Source of the DNA: Marinilabilia salmonicolor
Lineage (GTDB): Bacteria > Bacteroidota > Bacteroidia > Bacteroidales > Marinilabiliaceae
Reading direction: 5' to 3'
NCBI RefSeq assembly: GCF_003003035.1
Contig: NZ_PVTS01000024.1
Coordinates: 1-47,060 of the forward strand
Length of the DNA: 47,060 nt
Positions 3,001 through 40,776 of this stretch are shown here, in pieces. The position numbers were made by a program, and so were the translations under genes. A model generated the notes under the pieces. That model saw only the letters and a program-made list of their open reading frames with translations. It ran no database searches and was not told the DNA's origin. Position 1 is the first letter of the stretch. Each line of letters begins with the position of its first letter.

Positions 3001-3057
3001 GTAAATGAGCAATTTGCTGGCAGCGTAACGATGCAAGTTGGACTTTATAGACAAACA
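2998..3057 (+). repeat. partial family A repeat (right end only)
   Basis: Bases 2998-3057 (atcgtaaatgagcaattt, then agcgtaacgatgcaagttgg, then actttatagacaaac) align with the right-hand third of the full copy at 3168-3227. The left part is missing exactly where palindromic element P1 ends, so P1 may have inserted into, or replaced, an older family A copy. It shares its last bases with the flank of copy A1, giving a near-tandem arrangement. Confidence 0.5.
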
Positions 3058-3234
3058 CTATTTAGTGCCTGTCTATAAACTAAGTAAATTCTGTTTTTAG
3101 AGCTGTTTCTGGTCAGAAAGTGCCAGTTGCAAGACTTGCGAAGTCCGAAAATACGGAGTTTACTCATCGTAAATGAGTAATTTTCGGATGAGCGTAACGC
3201 AGCAAATGGTACTTTATGGACAGAAACTACTTAG
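3044..3234 (+). repeat. family A repeat, copy A1
   Basis: The core runs 3080-3234 (155 bp), bounded by CTAAGTAAATTCTG and the inverted CTAAGTAGTTTCTGTCC. It is preceded by a conserved hairpin flank, TTTATAGACA...TGTCTATAAA (3044-3079). Inside are GCAAGACTTGC, a stem TCCGAAAAT (3144-3152) with ATTTTCGGA (3180-3188), and the block GCGTAACGCAGCAAATGG. It matches copies at 9156-9344 and 36482-36669. Its right end contains the ribE stop codon (TAA read from 3233 to 3231). The longest ORF across it is a shadow. Confidence 0.75.
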
Positions 3235-3836
3235 TCTCTGAAATGCAGTAATCTGCTGATGTATTTCCCAATGATATCAAACTCCAGATTTACCACACTT
3301 CCTTCCTTAATCTGGTGGAAGTTGGTGAATTCGTAAGTGTAAGGAATGATGGCCACCGAAAAGCGGTCGTCTTTACTGTTAACCACTGTCAGGCTTACTC
3401 CGTTTACGGTAACAGATCCTTTTTCAACCGTCATGTAACCTTGTCCTGCTTTCTCTTTATCCACATCGTACTGAAAAGTAAAATACCAGCTGCCATCTGC
3501 CTCTTTAACTTCCACACATTTTGCTGTCTGATCTACATGACCTTGCACGATGTGACCGTCCAGTCTGCCATTCATGGGCATGCTGCGCTCCAGATTCACT
3601 TTATCTCCGGGTTTCAGATGACCAAGGTTCGACTTTTCCAGCGTTTCACTGATGGCCGTTACGGTATAGGTATCTTCTTCTTTCTTTACAACCGTCAGAC
3701 AAACACCGTTGTGAGAAATACTCTGGTCTATTTTAAGTTCATCGGTAAACGAACATTTTAATGTGAGATGCACATTTCCTTTTTCTTTTTCTACTGCTGT
3801 AACCGTGGCAGCTTCTTCAACTATTCCTGAAAACAT
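3231..3836 (-). CDS. ribE: riboflavin synthase, alpha subunit
   Basis: Riboflavin synthase dismutates two 6,7-dimethyl-8-ribityllumazines into riboflavin and a pyrimidinedione in the cytosol. The 201-residue length and start MFSGIVEEAA are typical of the family. The two lumazine-binding barrel repeats are visible: residues 1 to about 97 (ISHNGVCLTVV) and about 98-196 (VEKGSVTVNGVSLTVV), with the inter-repeat GHIVQGHVD motif. It stands alone, without other rib genes. The stop codon falls within the end of repeat A1, so the final few residues (HFRD) may come from the element. Upstream, 3837-3928 is AT-rich leader, followed by repeat B1. No FMN riboswitch was recognised. Confidence 0.95.
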   Translation of the reverse strand: MFSGIVEEAATVTAVEKEKGNVHLTLKCSFTDELKIDQSISHNGVCLTVVKKEEDTYTVTAISETLEKSNLGHLKPGDKVNLERSMPMNGRLDGHIVQGHVDQTAKCVEVKEADGSWYFTFQYDVDKEKAGQGYMTVEKGSVTVNGVSLTVVNSKDDRFSVAIIPYTYEFTNFHQIKEGSVVNLEFDIIGKYISRLLHFRD

Positions 3837-3928: not shown

Positions 3929-4110
3929 CTAACCCGAACTATTCATAAATTATCTATTACGATGCCCAACCTTCTGCGAAATATGGACATTCTCAATAAA
4001 AATGATTTGAAAATAATTCACTATTTCCTTCATCATTTTTATTTGCGATTGTCACTATTTCTTGATGTTTGAACATCTCATCACGATTTTTCATGAATAG
4101 ATCAGGCTAA
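3929..4110 (-). repeat. family B repeat, copy B1
   Basis: A 182-bp non-coding element in the divergent ribE/OsmC gap. Terminal inverted repeats: CTAACCCGAACTATTCATAAA at the left end, and at the right end, read inward on the minus strand, TTAGCCTGATCTATTCATGAA. Read on the minus strand it contains AAAAATGA...TCATTTTT around AAATAGTgaATTATTT, the nested family hairpin with one swapped A-T pair and one G-T wobble relative to copy B3. It has the same length as B2 and B4. Confidence 0.75.
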
Positions 4111-8386: not shown

Positions 8387-8568
8387 GTAACCTGGTCTTT
8401 TTTTAAGTTTTCGTCCTGAGATGTTCAAGTACCAATAAATACGGGCAACCGCAAAGGAAATTGATGAAGGGGATAATAATTTATTCTCAGGTCAATTTTA
8501 TTGAGGACGCCTGTATTTAGCCGGTAGTTGAATATTGTAATAGATAATTTATGAATAATTCAGATTAG
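8387..8568 (+). repeat. family B repeat, copy B2
   Basis: A 182-bp copy flush against the mmcQ start codon. The left terminal repeat is GTAACCTGGTC; the right end is TATGAATAATTCAGATTAG. Its hairpin reads AAATTGA...TCAATTT enclosing GGATAATaaTTTATTC. Compared with B3, one outer inner-stem pair changed from A-T to G-C and another from G-C to A-T, with a G-T wobble between. This changed pairing supports selection for the fold. It fills the yraN-to-mmcQ gap. Confidence 0.75.
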
Positions 8569-9106: not shown

Positions 9107-9154
9107 CTATATAGTTTCTGACCATAAACAGGCCTAAAAATAAATTTCTCCGAC
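9107..9154 (-). repeat. 48-bp mini family A element
   Basis: CTATATAGTTTCTGACC, then ACAGGCCTAAAAATAAATTT, ending CTCCGAC: 48 bp, the same length as the mini copy at 39327-39374 and sharing its start and its ACAGG-CTAAAAATAAATTT interior. The first 17 bases resemble the inverted right end of full family A copies. It is followed directly by the TTTATAGAC hairpin flank of copy A2. Confidence 0.55.
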
Positions 9155-9155
9155 T

Positions 9156-9344
9156 TTTATAGACGGACTCTATATAGTCTGTCTATAAACTAAGTAAGTT
9201 TCTCAAGTTTGCTGTGTCTGTTAAGAAGGTTCCGTTTGCAAGGCTTGCCATTAGCGGAAATGCGGAATTTACTTGAGTAAATGAGCAATTTCCGCTAATG
9301 GCGTAACGCAGTAAACGGGACTTTATGGACAGAAACCATTTAAG
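9156..9344 (+). repeat. family A repeat, copy A2
   Basis: The core is 9190-9344 (155 bp, same length as A1), starting CTAAGTAAGTTTCT. Its hairpin flank is TTTATAGAC...GTCTATAAA. It has the longest central stem of the family: 15 perfect base pairs, GCCATTAGCGGAAAT (9247-9261) with ATTTCCGCTAATGGC (9288-9302). Inside that is a small TTTACT-TG-AGTAAA stem. The end overlaps the stop codon of the LD-carboxypeptidase gene (9340-9342). The yraN-ldc gap holds nothing else. Confidence 0.75.
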
Positions 9345-36222: not shown

Positions 36223-36391
36223 CTTAACCTGGTTTCTTTATGAGATGTTTAAATGCTAATAAATTCGGACAACCGCAGAGAAAATTGATGAAGGAAATAG
36301 TGAACTATTTTCAAGTCAATTTTTTGAGGACGCCTGAACTTAGCAGGTAGTTGAACATCGCAATAGATAATTTATGAATAATCCAGGTTAT
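36223..36391 (+). repeat. family B repeat, copy B3
   Basis: A 169-bp copy; relative to B4 it lacks 13 bp near its left end, and the rest aligns almost base for base. Left terminal repeat CTTAACCTGG, right end AATAATCCAGGTTA. The nested hairpin is AAAATTGA (36281-36288) with TCAATTTT (36316-36323), enclosing AAATAGT-GA-ACTATTT (36295-36310). It lies 44 bp upstream of the PBP start codon, in the region where that gene's promoter should be. Confidence 0.78.
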
Positions 36392-36481: not shown

Positions 36482-36669
36482 CTTATGAACAGACCCTATT
36501 TAGTGCCTGGCAATAAAGTCGGGAGAATGGTAATTGGAGCTGTGTCGATTCAGAAAGTTGTGTTTGCAAGGCCTGGCATTCCCTGAAATGCGAAGTTTAC
36601 CTGAGTAAATGAGGAATTTTCGGGCAGGCGTAACGCAGTAAATGATACTTTATGGACAAACTTTTTTAG
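36482..36669 (+). repeat. family A repeat, copy A3
   Basis: The most diverged full copy. The left hairpin flank is CTATTTAGTGCCTGG; TGTTTGCAAGGCCTGGCATT precedes the stem CCCTGAAAT (36581-36589) with ATTTTCGGG (36616-36624), then GGCGTAACGCAGTAAATG and ACTTTATGGACAAAC. Its left CTAAGTA end is degenerate. It begins 90 bp after B3 in the same orientation. Unlike A1 and A2 it does not touch a stop codon. Confidence 0.68.
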
Positions 36670-36898: not shown

Positions 36899-39334
36899 AT
36901 GGCGAAAAAAGAGAAGACAACAGAAGAGAATCTGGTTATTGTAGAGTCGCCTGCAAAGGCCAAGACGATAGAGAAGTTTCTGGGAAAGGGGTTTATGGTG
37001 AAATCCAGTTTTGGTCACATACGTGATTTGGCAAAGAAAGATTTTGGTATTGATCTTAATCATAATTATCAGCCTCAATACATCGTTTCGGAAGATAAAA
37101 AGGAAGTGGTTCGGGAACTGAAATCACTGGCCAAAAATGCTGATACGGTGTGGCTTGCTTCCGATGAAGACCGCGAGGGAGAGGCAATTGCATGGCATCT
37201 TAGTGAGGTGCTGGAGTTGTCTCAGGAGAAAACACGAAGGATTGTGTTTCATGAAATAACAAAGGAGGCTATCCTTTCGGCCATTGAATCTCCCAGGGCT
37301 ATCGACGATAATCTGGTGAATGCGCAGCAGGCCCGCAGGGTACTGGACCGACTGGTAGGGTTTGAGCTTTCTCCGGTGCTGTGGAAAAAAGTAAAACCTT
37401 CCTTGTCAGCGGGTAGAGTTCAGTCGGTGGCTGTAAGACTCCTGGTGGAGCGCGAAAGAGAAATCTTCGACTTTAACGCAGAATCAGCATTTCGGGTGTC
37501 TGCCATTTTCACCATCGATGAAGGAGGGAAGAAGAGTGATTTTAAAGCTGAACTGAATCATCGGTTTAAGACACTGGAAGAGGCAAAAGCTTTTTTGAAT
37601 AGTTGTGCGGGAGCTGACTTTAAGGTAAATTCTGTTGTTAAGAAACCTTCAACAAAAACTCCGGCTGCGCCTTTTACTACTTCCACACTGCAACAGGAAG
37701 CTGCCCGGAAGCTCGGTTTTAGCGTGGGACAAACCATGTCGGTGGCTCAAAAGCTTTATGAGGCAGGTAAGATTACTTACATGAGAACGGATTCGGTAAA
37801 TCTTGCCAAATCGGCTGTTAGTGCTGTTGCATCTGCCATAACTTCTGAGTTCGGAGAGAAGTATGTGAAGGTTCGGCAATATCGAACCAAATCGAAGGGA
37901 GCCCAGGAAGCGCACGAGGCCATCAGGCCAACCTATCCTGACAATCCATCGGTTAGCGGGTCTGCCCAGGAACAGAAACTATATGATTTAATATATAAAC
38001 GTACAATGGCTTCTCAGATGAGTGATGCTCTTATAGAGAAGACTACTGTTAATATAGGTGTTGGCGCAGAGAAACATCAGTTCGTCGCCACCGGAGAGGT
38101 TGTGAAGTTTGATGGTTTTCTGAAGGTATATATTGAATCGTCTGATCAGGAAGAGGACGAAGAGTCTGCAACTTTTTTGCCGGCCACGAAGGAAAACGAT
38201 GCACTGACCCTGAAAAAACTGGAGTCGCGTCAAAGGTTTTCCCAGAAACCACCCCGATATTCCGAAGCAAGTTTGGTGCGTAAGCTCGAAGAGCTGGGGA
38301 TTGGACGTCCTTCCACCTATGCACCAACCATCAGTACCATTCAGCAAAGGGGGTATGTGGTCAAGGAAGATCGTCCCGGCACCCCACGTGCTTATCAATT
38401 CTTGTGGCTTGAAGGGGGAGCAGTAAAGCATGAGGAAAGATCGGAGATGGCCAATGCAGAAAGAAATAAACTTTTCCCTACCGATATAGCCATGGTTGTA
38501 AACGACTTCCTGGTTAGCTATTTCCCTAATGTCGTTAGCTATGATTTTACTGCCAGAGTGGAGCAGGAATTTGATGAAATAGCCCTGGGAAATCTGGGTT
38601 GGCAGAAGGCCATTGATGAGTTTTACAAGCCTTTTCATCAGCAGGTGGAAGAGACACTGGAAAAATCGGATCGAACAACCGGAGAACGGGTATTGGGAAC
38701 CGACCCTAAAACAGGAAAACCTATCAGTGTTCGTATCGGACGGTTTGGGCCAATGGCTCAGCTGGGGAGTTCCGATGATGAGGAAAAACCACGATATGCA
38801 CCTCTCACCCGCGAGCAGCACCTTGAAACAATAACGTTGGAGGAGGCTGTTAAGTTGTTTGATCTTCCACGGGATCTGGGCACTTATGAAGATAAGAAAG
38901 TAGTGGTTGGTGTTGGTCGTTTTGGTCCGTATGTCCGGCACGACGGGAAATTTGCCTCTTTGAAGAAAGGGGTGGACGATCCGATGACCATTGATCTGGA
39001 TCGGGCCATCGAACTTATTGAAGAGAAAAGGGAACGAGACAATAAAAAATACATTAAATCGTTTGAAGAGGACAAGGATCTTCAGGTGCTTAACGGTCGA
39101 TGGGGACCTTATATCAGTTACAAGAAGAAAAACTATAAAATTCCTAAGGACACCGAGGCTGCCGATCTGAGTTATGATGATTGCCTAAAGCTTATTGCAG
39201 AGGGAGATAAAACAAAAAAAACGAAGAAAGGGAAAACTTCAAAAACTTCCGGCACAAAGAAAACAACTAAAAGTGCTTCGGCGGGTAAAAAGAAGGGTTC
39301 TTCAACTTCGAAAACGACAAAAAAAGCTAAGTAG
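36899..39334 (+). CDS. topA: DNA topoisomerase I
   Basis: An 811-residue type IA topoisomerase that relaxes negative supercoils. TOPRIM domain at the N-terminus (NLVIVESPAKAKTIEKFLG; acidic ASDEDREGEAIAWH); catalytic Tyr in ITYMRTDSVN near residue 297; LSAGRVQSVAVRLLVERE and YAPTISTIQQRGYV. Instead of zinc fingers the C-terminus has three short repeats (SVRIGRFGPMAQLG, VVVGVGRFGPYVRHDG, LNGRWGPYISY) and then a Lys/Thr/Ser-rich basic tail likely to bind DNA. The stop TAG lies in the CTAAGTAGTTTCTGTCC end of a mini family A repeat, so the tail's last codons border the element. Confidence 0.96.
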   Translation: MAKKEKTTEENLVIVESPAKAKTIEKFLGKGFMVKSSFGHIRDLAKKDFGIDLNHNYQPQYIVSEDKKEVVRELKSLAKNADTVWLASDEDREGEAIAWHLSEVLELSQEKTRRIVFHEITKEAILSAIESPRAIDDNLVNAQQARRVLDRLVGFELSPVLWKKVKPSLSAGRVQSVAVRLLVEREREIFDFNAESAFRVSAIFTIDEGGKKSDFKAELNHRFKTLEEAKAFLNSCAGADFKVNSVVKKPSTKTPAAPFTTSTLQQEAARKLGFSVGQTMSVAQKLYEAGKITYMRTDSVNLAKSAVSAVASAITSEFGEKYVKVRQYRTKSKGAQEAHEAIRPTYPDNPSVSGSAQEQKLYDLIYKRTMASQMSDALIEKTTVNIGVGAEKHQFVATGEVVKFDGFLKVYIESSDQEEDEESATFLPATKENDALTLKKLESRQRFSQKPPRYSEASLVRKLEELGIGRPSTYAPTISTIQQRGYVVKEDRPGTPRAYQFLWLEGGAVKHEERSEMANAERNKLFPTDIAMVVNDFLVSYFPNVVSYDFTARVEQEFDEIALGNLGWQKAIDEFYKPFHQQVEETLEKSDRTTGERVLGTDPKTGKPISVRIGRFGPMAQLGSSDDEEKPRYAPLTREQHLETITLEEAVKLFDLPRDLGTYEDKKVVVGVGRFGPYVRHDGKFASLKKGVDDPMTIDLDRAIELIEEKRERDNKKYIKSFEEDKDLQVLNGRWGPYISYKKKNYKIPKDTEAADLSYDDCLKLIAEGDKTKKTKKGKTSKTSGTKKTTKSASAGKKKGSSTSKTTKKAK

Positions 39335-39374
39335 TTTCTGTCCAGAGACAGGACTAAAAATAAATTTTGCTTAG
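39327..39374 (-). repeat. 48-bp mini family A element at the topA stop
   Basis: CTAAGTAGTTTCTGTCC, AGAGACAGG, ACTAAAAATAAATTTTGCTTAG. The first 17 bases are identical to the inverted right end of copy A1, and the final GCTTAG is the inverted left end. The whole interior of the 155-bp core is missing. It has the same length and interior as the mini copy at 9107-9154. The topA stop codon TAG is at its positions 6-8. A TTTATGAACAGACT flank follows. Confidence 0.62.
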
Positions 39375-39444
39375 TTTATGAACAGACTTTAAGTAGAGCA
39401 ACCGTGCAATCTGAAAGTATTAATTTTAAATATTAAATTGTCTG

Positions 39445-40614
39445 GTGGAAATCAGTAATTACATAGAGCCTGTTAAATTGAACAGGGTTTCTTATCAAGG
39501 GATTGCTGACGAGGAAACACTGGGAAATGACATATTGTTTTTTGATGGAACGGCCCAATGGTTTTTGGATAAAAAATTTGACGTAGCCATACTGGGTGTT
39601 CCCGAAACCAGAAATTGCCAACGGGCAGTTTCTTCTGAAGCCCCCGGTATTATTCGCAGATGGCTGTACGGGATGAGGAAAATTTCTTCCGGAGATGTCA
39701 TTGCTGATTTGGGCAATGTTAAAGGAAATAGTCTTAAGGATCGTTACATTGCGCTTCAAGAGGTTGCCGAGTATCTGGAACAGCAGAATGTTGTGGTTTT
39801 AGTTCTCGGAGGTTCTCAGGATTTGACGGTTCCTCTTTGCGGGGTTTTTCCAAAAACGGCAAGGAAGTTTAACCTTACAGTGGTTGATTCGTTTATCGAT
39901 CTGGTGCCGGCAGACGACGATTATTCAGAAGAAACCTTTCTGAATAAGCTGATTGCTGATTATGGCCCCGAAAATATAGAGGATTTGAGCCTGTTGGGAT
40001 GCCAGAATTATTATTGCAGCAGCCGGCAGGAGCAGGTTTTGAGCGACCATTATTTTCGGTTGGCCCGATTAAAGGAGCTCAGAAATGAGAACATTGAAAC
40101 GGTTGAAGTATTTTTGAGACAGTCAGATGTTTTGAGTTTCGATTTTTCGGCGATCAGGGAAATGCCGGTGCTGCCGGGAGGAAATAAAATGCCAAACGGA
40201 TTTTCTGAACTTGATGCTTGTCGGATCTTATGGTATGCCGGAGCTTCTGATGTTCTGAAGATTACAGGACTTTTTAATTTGCCGGCAGGAAATTCTGAAG
40301 GCGAGGAGTACGGGCCGCTGGGAGCGCAGATGTGTTGGCATTTTTTGGAAGGAAGGGGCGCCAGGTGCGGGGATTACCCGCTAAGGTCTTTTCAGGATTA
40401 TGAATTAAAGGCAGTTTACCTGGAGGAGTTTGATGCTTCTTTGAAATTTTACCATAATCCGGCTAACGGCAGATGGTGGTTGATGATACCGTACGGCGAC
40501 AATGAGCGGTTGATCCCATGTTCCGGGAAAGACTATAAGGATGCTGTAGCTAAAGAATTACCTGCCTTGTGGTGGCATTTCTTTATGAAGAACTCTAACC
40601 TGGATTATTCATAA
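39445..40614 (+). CDS. arginase-fold protein with degenerate metal site
   Basis: A 389-residue protein of the ureohydrolase (arginase/agmatinase/formimidoylglutamase) superfamily. Fold marks: VVLVLGGSQDLTVPL, FNLTVVDSFIDLVPADD, SDVLSFDFSAIREM. In active enzymes these would read GG-x-H, D-A-H-x-D and S-x-D-x-D. Here the first His is Gln, the second motif is DSFID, and the last metal Asp is Ser/Ala. Binuclear Mn binding and hydrolase activity are therefore unlikely. Start is GTG 39445. It lies between topA and the type IX secretion genes, a neighbourhood I recall from other Bacteroidetes. Its last five residues and stop (NLDYS) are encoded by the end of repeat B4. Confidence 0.82.
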   Translation: MEISNYIEPVKLNRVSYQGIADEETLGNDILFFDGTAQWFLDKKFDVAILGVPETRNCQRAVSSEAPGIIRRWLYGMRKISSGDVIADLGNVKGNSLKDRYIALQEVAEYLEQQNVVVLVLGGSQDLTVPLCGVFPKTARKFNLTVVDSFIDLVPADDDYSEETFLNKLIADYGPENIEDLSLLGCQNYYCSSRQEQVLSDHYFRLARLKELRNENIETVEVFLRQSDVLSFDFSAIREMPVLPGGNKMPNGFSELDACRILWYAGASDVLKITGLFNLPAGNSEGEEYGPLGAQMCWHFLEGRGARCGDYPLRSFQDYELKAVYLEEFDASLKFYHNPANGRWWLMIPYGDNERLIPCSGKDYKDAVAKELPALWWHFFMKNSNLDYS

Positions 40615-40776
40615 ATTATCTATTGCGATGTTCAACTTCCTTCTAAATTCAGGCGTCCTCAAAAAATTGATTCGAAAATAGTTCACTATTTCCTGTATCA
40701 ATTTTATCTGCGGTAACCTAAATTTATTGGCATTTAAACATCTCTTAACGATAACTGATGAAGAAGCCAGGTTAAG
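40595..40776 (-). repeat. family B repeat, copy B4
   Basis: 182 bp. Left end CTAACCTGGATTATTCATAAA, right end CCAGGTTAAG. Read on the minus strand it matches B3 closely, with the hairpin AAAATTGA...TCAATTTT around AAATAGT-GA-ACTATTT identical to B3. The first 20 bases are coding: they supply the C-terminal codons and TAA of the arginase-like gene. It fills most of the gap before porP. Confidence 0.78.

Follow-up and report, generated by a model that had tools for sequence, protein, structure and literature searches.

Element B of Marinilabilia salmonicolor, a miniature inverted-repeat element with IS1380-type ends and a covarying, strand-polarized hairpin fold

REP/BIME sequences are dispersed palindromes with strand-specific structure that are moved by Y1 transposases, a REP element being a short palindrome with a tag tetranucleotide and a Y1 (RAYT) transposase. 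The insertion sequences (IS) of the IS1380 family are related to the eukaryotic piggyBac transposons, and their transposases, which contain a DDE domain, move double-stranded DNA. Porphyromonas gingivalis, host of one of the miniature inverted-repeat elements (MITEs) considered here, belongs to the Bacteroidales. According to the relevant section of a report on piggyBac elements (PMC10813416), their duplications are TTAA and rarely CTAA/TTAG, and IS1380 serves there as an outgroup. The bacterial MITEs that form hairpins include ERIC/RU-1, YPAL/RU-2 and NEMIS/Correia; in those parts of a review that treat them (PMC2229807), the orientation of ERIC is described as crucial for its effect on mRNA, and 5'-TA-3' at the termini is given its own column in a table. 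Excerpts on the BrickBuilt MITE of P. gingivalis (PMC4596501; named in PMC5771137) state that it contains a minisatellite. From palindromes alone it is difficult to say whether the hairpins of bacterial MITEs merely result from end symmetry or are RNAs under selection.

The stretch of M. salmonicolor DNA analyzed here (47,060 nucleotides; hereafter the window) contains four copies, B1 to B4, of an element termed B, which are 160–174 bp long and have matched inverted ends and no transposase. Element B resembles ERIC, YPAL and NEMIS, as outlined in the review sections (PMC2229807), in its size class of 100–200 bp, its mostly intergenic location and its combination of terminal repeats with a target duplication; those elements yield transcripts with long stem-loops, as B is proposed to do. 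It differs from them, in a comparison made by description and not by sequence, in its IS1380-type ends, its YTAR duplication and its Bacteroidales hosts. A tested strand polarity and a constancy of structure across families further set B apart from the enterobacterial and Neisseria hairpin MITEs as they appear in those sections. BrickBuilt and B, likewise compared by description and not by sequence, are both Bacteroidales MITEs, the minisatellite being mentioned in the BrickBuilt excerpts. Like REP/BIME, B is a dispersed palindrome with strand-specific structure; unlike REP/BIME, it has a 4-bp duplication and the ends of a DDE-type IS, and its size also argues against a REP element. With the IS1380 subgroup of the order it shares the terminal CCTGNWTWATTCATRA and YTAR flanks, but it lacks a transposase and has an interior that does not derive from the IS examined. 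No account of B was found in the open-access literature on IS1380, MITEs and Marinilabilia repeats, in the sections of those texts that were available.

An earlier note on this DNA had described a nested hairpin at 36281–36323 on the forward strand, within B3. Folding and pair counting gave the nested hairpin described there, with an outer stem of 9 bp, an inner stem of 8 bp, a TGAA loop and a free energy of -12.5 kcal/mol. The letters of the four copies also agree with the pairings listed there: inner pair 1-16 is A-T in B1, B3 and B4 and G-C in B2; inner pair 6-11 is G-C in B3 and B4, G-T in B1 and A-T in B2; inner pair 2-15 is A-T or G-T; and one T-A pair of the outer stem is A-T in B1. The hairpin is therefore real, but its coordinates were drawn too narrowly. 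The 43 nucleotides are the apex of an element of ∼174 bp that folds on itself over its full length, and the RNAalifold consensus places 53 of 53 pairs in one unbranched hairpin spanning B, with a two-sided change present in at least one instance at 21 of these 53 pairs.

Element B is a dispersed, non-autonomous MITE. Its termini are matched inverted ends, CCTGNWTWATTCATRA, within 4-bp YTAR target duplications, which in the window are perfect in B1 only. B1 (174 bp, positions 3933–4106, reverse strand) lies between TTAG and TTAG, read as CTAA/CTAA on the forward strand, and the corresponding locus of a sister genome, the closest one of the same genus (79–91% identity over aligned blocks of more than 700 bp), is a clean empty site with a single CTAA as compared with two in the window. 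B2 (174 bp, 8391–8564, forward strand) has the flanks GTAA/TTAG, an imperfect duplication, and B4 (173 bp, 40599–40771, reverse strand) has TTAA/TTAG, with one mismatch; both are likewise absent from the sister genome at the same places, in less clean alignments, and that genome has a private B copy of its own. B3 (160 bp, 36228–36387, forward strand) is flanked by TTAA (36224–36227) and TTAT (36388–36391), and its left arm is ∼14 nucleotides shorter than in the rest of the family.

Larger numbers of copies were collected with a covariance model. Of its hits, 150 of 151 and a further 120 were aligned, and removal of opposite-strand duplicates left 149 copies, 147 of them unique. The four bases preceding CCTG and following CAGG were mostly YTAR in those copies whose ends are intact (98 of 147), and in these 98 the left and right flanks matched at a mean of 3.59 of 4 letters, as compared with 2.82 expected from column frequencies; flank columns 2-180 and 5-183 also covaried in a tree-based test. 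Size and ends, target duplication, dispersed copies, presence/absence polymorphism and ends in common with autonomous IS are thus all found for B. That B is instead a non-mobile RNA gene or regulatory RNA that came to be multiplied through chance, with no transposon involved, is very improbable: conserved loops and covarying stems do form an Rfam-like pattern, but the copies occupy dispersed intergenic sites with target duplications, share their ends with an IS and, at the B1 locus, are matched by an empty site that would have to be a precise deletion.

In its own genome B occurs in at least 40 places (BLAST with B3, best 40 of 78 candidates), of which 37 aligned over near-full length and three partial ones were excluded; a search with the end pattern, which gave 109 matches as compared with 3 for a reversed control, indicated further copies. 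Among 61 kin genomes, own included, 15 carry B by BLAST, three of them weakly, with a single short match each. Across the order, B was found by covariance model in 14 of 295 genomes, with copy numbers that are all minimum values, derived from at most the best nine candidates per genome. Beyond the host family, the lengths among the matches listed are mostly 181–184, flank bases included, the exceptions being 61, 112, 130, 131, 179 (at a contig start), 197, 240 and 245. An exact core pattern of B retrieved 57 stretches, with Marinilabilia, Geofilum, Natronoflexus, Alkalitalea and a Bacteroidales metagenome bin as named carriers. BLAST against plasmids and phages gave no match, and the exact core pattern was absent from viral contigs.

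Copies of 231–244 bp were also present, with an apical insert in six cases (loci L104, L107, L108, L117, L120 and L123) and an inner-arm insert in one (L133). These larger variants were considered as ancestors of B and rejected, as they carry apical inserts of ∼50–60 bp and are not a source. The insert contains AACGAG...CGAGTT...CGACCATAA and is perhaps a third small mobile hairpin. The ends of B were also seen around other interiors, namely a 245-bp near-perfect hairpin (L193:1342–1586), a 112-bp form (L173:1285–1396) and a 58-bp form (L061:3047–3105), and as 32-bp head-to-head pairs with almost nothing between them (genome G000, contig C10:93865–93896, C8:84599–84630 and C1:291914–291945).

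The YTAR target and the CC-start of the ends are taken here to point to the IS1380 family as the source of the mobilizing activity. A search of 34 chosen genomes with the NF033539 model gave 11 IS1380 loci over the cut-off, in eight genomes. At three of these 11 loci, one of them in the own genome, an inward-facing pair of B's ends was found 1.5–1.7 kb apart, at no more than three mismatches per end; no such pair occurred in 3300 mononucleotide-shuffled sequences. An intact member of 453 amino acids, which matches PF13701 at 1e-140 and scores 347 bits with NF033539, for which the cut-off is 180, gave matches in 15 of 393 genomes when used as the query. Both B-type ends were present in eight IS at 53% identity or more to this member, two of them among the earlier three; at the same level of identity six more loci had one end (several of these are incomplete or close to the end of a contig), one had neither end, and one had weak outward matches only. 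Since looser end pairs were found at three of five loci at 32–34% identity, related ends extend further into the IS1380 family.

These shared ends suggest that a transposase of this IS1380 subgroup likely mobilizes B in trans. The subgroup IS of the own genome is broken, its transposase lying in three ORF pieces; only four of 23 B-bearing genomes have a PF13701 match over the cut-off, and in the hand-picked set of 34 genomes the IS1380 model passed its cut-off in three of 23 genomes with B and five of 11 without B. B therefore seems either to outlive its helper or to be served by another transposase with the same ends. A search by eye for an autonomous partner near partial end matches, covering ORFs of at least 120 amino acids in ten stretches of six relatives, revealed no transposase; two of the ten stretches hold shorter elements with B's ends, and the others hold single ends or rearranged pieces. 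Derivation of B from an IS1380 element by internal deletion was rejected, only ∼16–20 terminal bases being held in common with the three IS as judged by eye. In the portion of a report that describes it (PMC3281130), one IS1380 member makes a 5-bp duplication, so the 4-bp duplication is a matter of the subgroup and not a rule of the family.

The paired changes that the earlier note had read from four copies were also found in larger collections. In the 37 near-full-length copies of the own genome, the covariation score was 0.318 as compared with 0.179 ± 0.006 in shuffles that ignore relatedness, and none of 500 shuffles reached 0.318; 95.3% of paired cells held a pair, as compared with 30–52% when the arms were slid. 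For tests that take descent into account, 130 of the 147 copies, with lengths of 176–190, were aligned with MAFFT without the use of structure, and 82 were kept at less than 95% identity. Events were counted on the branches of a FastTree tree, and in the corresponding simulations the substitutions of each column were retained and placed independently on the tree. Two-sided Watson-Crick changes in the 82 non-redundant copies numbered 59 (mean of 20 random tie-breaks), whereas the 60 simulations with independent columns gave a mean of 6.8 and a maximum of 14.

In an R-scape-like tree test, the scores of the 53 pairs added up to 1281, as compared with a null mean of 3 and maximum of 102 in 60 runs, and 12 of the 20 top-scoring column pairs belonged to the structure of B. 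At the strict all-pairs level (E < 0.05) no single pair passed in this test (threshold 89, observed maximum 73), and the same was true of an earlier version of the tree null. With only the structure's own pairs under test, nine of 53 passed (ten of 53 in the earlier version), with six of 53 in the subset of 60 host-family copies and three of 53 in the 22 distant copies. A kink-turn considered for the CCGCAGA/GAGG loop was rejected, since columns 69-118 show the covariation of a standard pair.

The preference for G-T over A-C on the forward strand of B3, noted from the wobbles of the four copies, was likewise borne out in many copies with strand-symmetric pair lists, at a ratio of 3.6. Within the whole element (69 symmetric pairs, 82 copies; means of 20 random tie-breaks), steps from Watson-Crick pairs to G-T numbered 191 versus 74 to A-C, and return steps numbered 104 from G-T versus 8 from A-C. 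The ratio of 3.6 compares with 1.4–2.7 in 60 simulations, and across three gap penalties it ranged from 3.6 to 3.9, the simulations (40 each) reaching at most 2.4. The simulations of B themselves lean to G-T, with a mean ratio of 1.7–1.8; column composition thus accounts for part of the raw excess, and an expectation of 1:1 would overstate the polarity. Unpaired columns were roughly balanced, with 35.3 C-to-T versus 30.6 G-to-A changes and 14.0 A-to-G versus 15.3 T-to-C changes per 1000. Counts of 172:45 and 223:94 were set aside, because ties between ancestral states had been broken alphabetically in obtaining them.

A second dispersed palindromic element of the genome, family A, served as the comparison. 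It is ∼160 bp long, is matched by BLAST at least 46 times in the genome (best 40 of 168 candidates scored) and lies in the window at 3045–3237, 9107–9331, 36483–36658 and 39327–39399. Its ends are like TGCCCGTCTATAAA/TTTATGGACAGACA and its flanks like CTAATTAG, which resemble a longer target duplication; in the sister genome a family A copy is inserted beside the B4 site. The same procedure applied to 26 non-redundant copies gave 29:17 forward and 10:4 return steps, a ratio of 1.9 that falls inside the family's own simulations (0.9–3.0, three settings). Family A thus shows a mild lean to G-T within its null, and B is clearly outside its null. One-strand pair lists were rejected, as they inflate G-T (family A: 27:8 with the forward-strand fold, 14:21 with the reverse-strand fold, 28:23 for the union), and so was an initial arm alignment of family A with poor structure, in which an A-C lean (26:34, returns 2:19) became a mild G-T lean once the score was maximized. 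The minimum free energy was lower on the B strand in 81 of 82 copies, but this was set aside as evidence, since it also holds for 26 of 26 copies of family A and is common to copies through their descent.

These data bear on the possibility that B is a MITE and nothing more, its symmetry arising from a transposase that binds both ends together with arm-to-arm correction or copying, so that selection would act on no folded strand. Such end symmetry fits the two-sided changes found among the terminal repeats (CTGG/CCAG, CTGC/GCAG and CTGA/TCAG), the polarity is weakest in those repeats (65:37), and family A shares both the G-T lean and the lower free energy. Nevertheless, a strand-blind process predicts no G-T excess of the kind by which B exceeds all of its simulations, and the polarity persists in the interior, at 158:57; these subset counts, with 59:11 in distant families and 81:37 in the own genome, use the alphabetical tie-break and so lean somewhat towards G-T. 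The loop letters and the near-constant length are, moreover, conserved far beyond the terminal repeat. Symmetry of this origin is thus an unlikely explanation of the fold. Selection on one folded strand, as the earlier note had proposed, is supported by compensatory changes in excess of shuffles and simulations and by the G-T polarity.

Conservation of unpaired letters was seen around CCGCAGA, opposite YGAGGACG, and at AGTTTTCGTYATGAGA, opposite CGNAATAGATAATTT. These letters persist in many copies of families whose helices changed sequence, and in the distant families conservation was 0.78 in unpaired versus 0.70 in paired columns. Fixed loop letters with changing helices would be the usual pattern for a structured RNA.

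By a simple ORF call, B copies are intergenic: 123 have genes on both sides, one lies inside an ORF and two have no gene on one side, 21 of the 147 copies having been excluded for too little flank. The genes around the 123 copies are arranged as 39 ++, 30 --, 36 divergent and 18 convergent, and because this orientation is nearly even, the selected strand is not simply that of one mRNA sense. The downstream gene has the same sense as B in 75 of 123 cases (p = 0.019), a mild bias for which the greater length of divergent regions may account. Of the 57 copies in own and related genomes that have a same-sense ORF upstream, 11 have this ORF ending 5–10 bases within the model match. A stop codon, TAA or TAG, is contained in the YTAR duplication and may make insertion of B at gene ends harmless. 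One copy in a distant genome (L164:500–682) lies between a tRNA gene and a 16S rRNA gene and has the same sense as these two. The Bacteroidetes-type promoter box, TAnnTTTG, was not conserved inside B, being present in at most five of 82 copies at any one place. No Rfam family reached its cut-off in the window, nor over B in seven loci, where the only match was MIR6440 on the other strand (29.5 bits versus 95). Beside one B copy, a V_AS9 match (L171:1137–1239) came near the Rfam threshold (47.6 bits, cut-off 50).

Strand polarity is blind to the difference between RNA and DNA, and the same strand of B could in principle be selected as a DNA hairpin when single-stranded, on the lagging strand, during DNA uptake or as a transposition intermediate. 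G-T is the better tolerated mismatch in DNA too, and the near-even gene orientation agrees with a role that does not depend on transcription. The terminal sequences, the 4-bp duplication and the matching IS, by contrast, indicate a DDE transposon of double-stranded DNA and not one of the Y1/HUH type, and on balance we consider this origin of the signal improbable, if a little less so than symmetry without selection. The specific suggestion in the earlier note of a single-stranded DNA hairpin recognized by a transposase is not favored, because the IS1380-type ends, the 4-bp duplications and the PF13701 domain of the matching IS point to DDE transposases, which are taken to move double-stranded DNA.

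RNA is accordingly named here as the likeliest form in which one strand of B would be selected. We consider it probable, though by no means certain, that B is an IS1380-type MITE whose interior is one hairpin and of which the RNA of one strand is transcribed and under selection. In the mechanism proposed, an IS1380-family transposase encoded elsewhere would cut B out and paste it at YTAR targets, as the common ends suggest. The interior is a single irregular hairpin of near-constant length, its helices changing by compensatory substitutions with G-T steps favored on one strand. Transcription of that strand, through read-through or in another way, would expose the hairpin to selection as RNA. 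By analogy with ERIC and NEMIS, the hairpin would most likely render insertions tolerable to, or of use to, transcripts in which they lie, through processing, stability or protection. A stronger reading, in which B is a transposon-borne structured RNA, of near-constant size and with conserved internal loops, that is carried through Bacteroidales genomes between IS1380-type ends and whose fold is itself selected over family-level distances, with the MITE as its vehicle and a function for element or host, is put forward more tentatively and is the less probable of the two.

Measured against simulations and with two palindromic families treated alike, the polarity test found a polarized signal in one of them, B. 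If the proposed reading is correct, a conserved RNA fold travels with an IS1380-type element across families of the Bacteroidales, and the function of that fold would be directly testable in culturable Marinilabilia.
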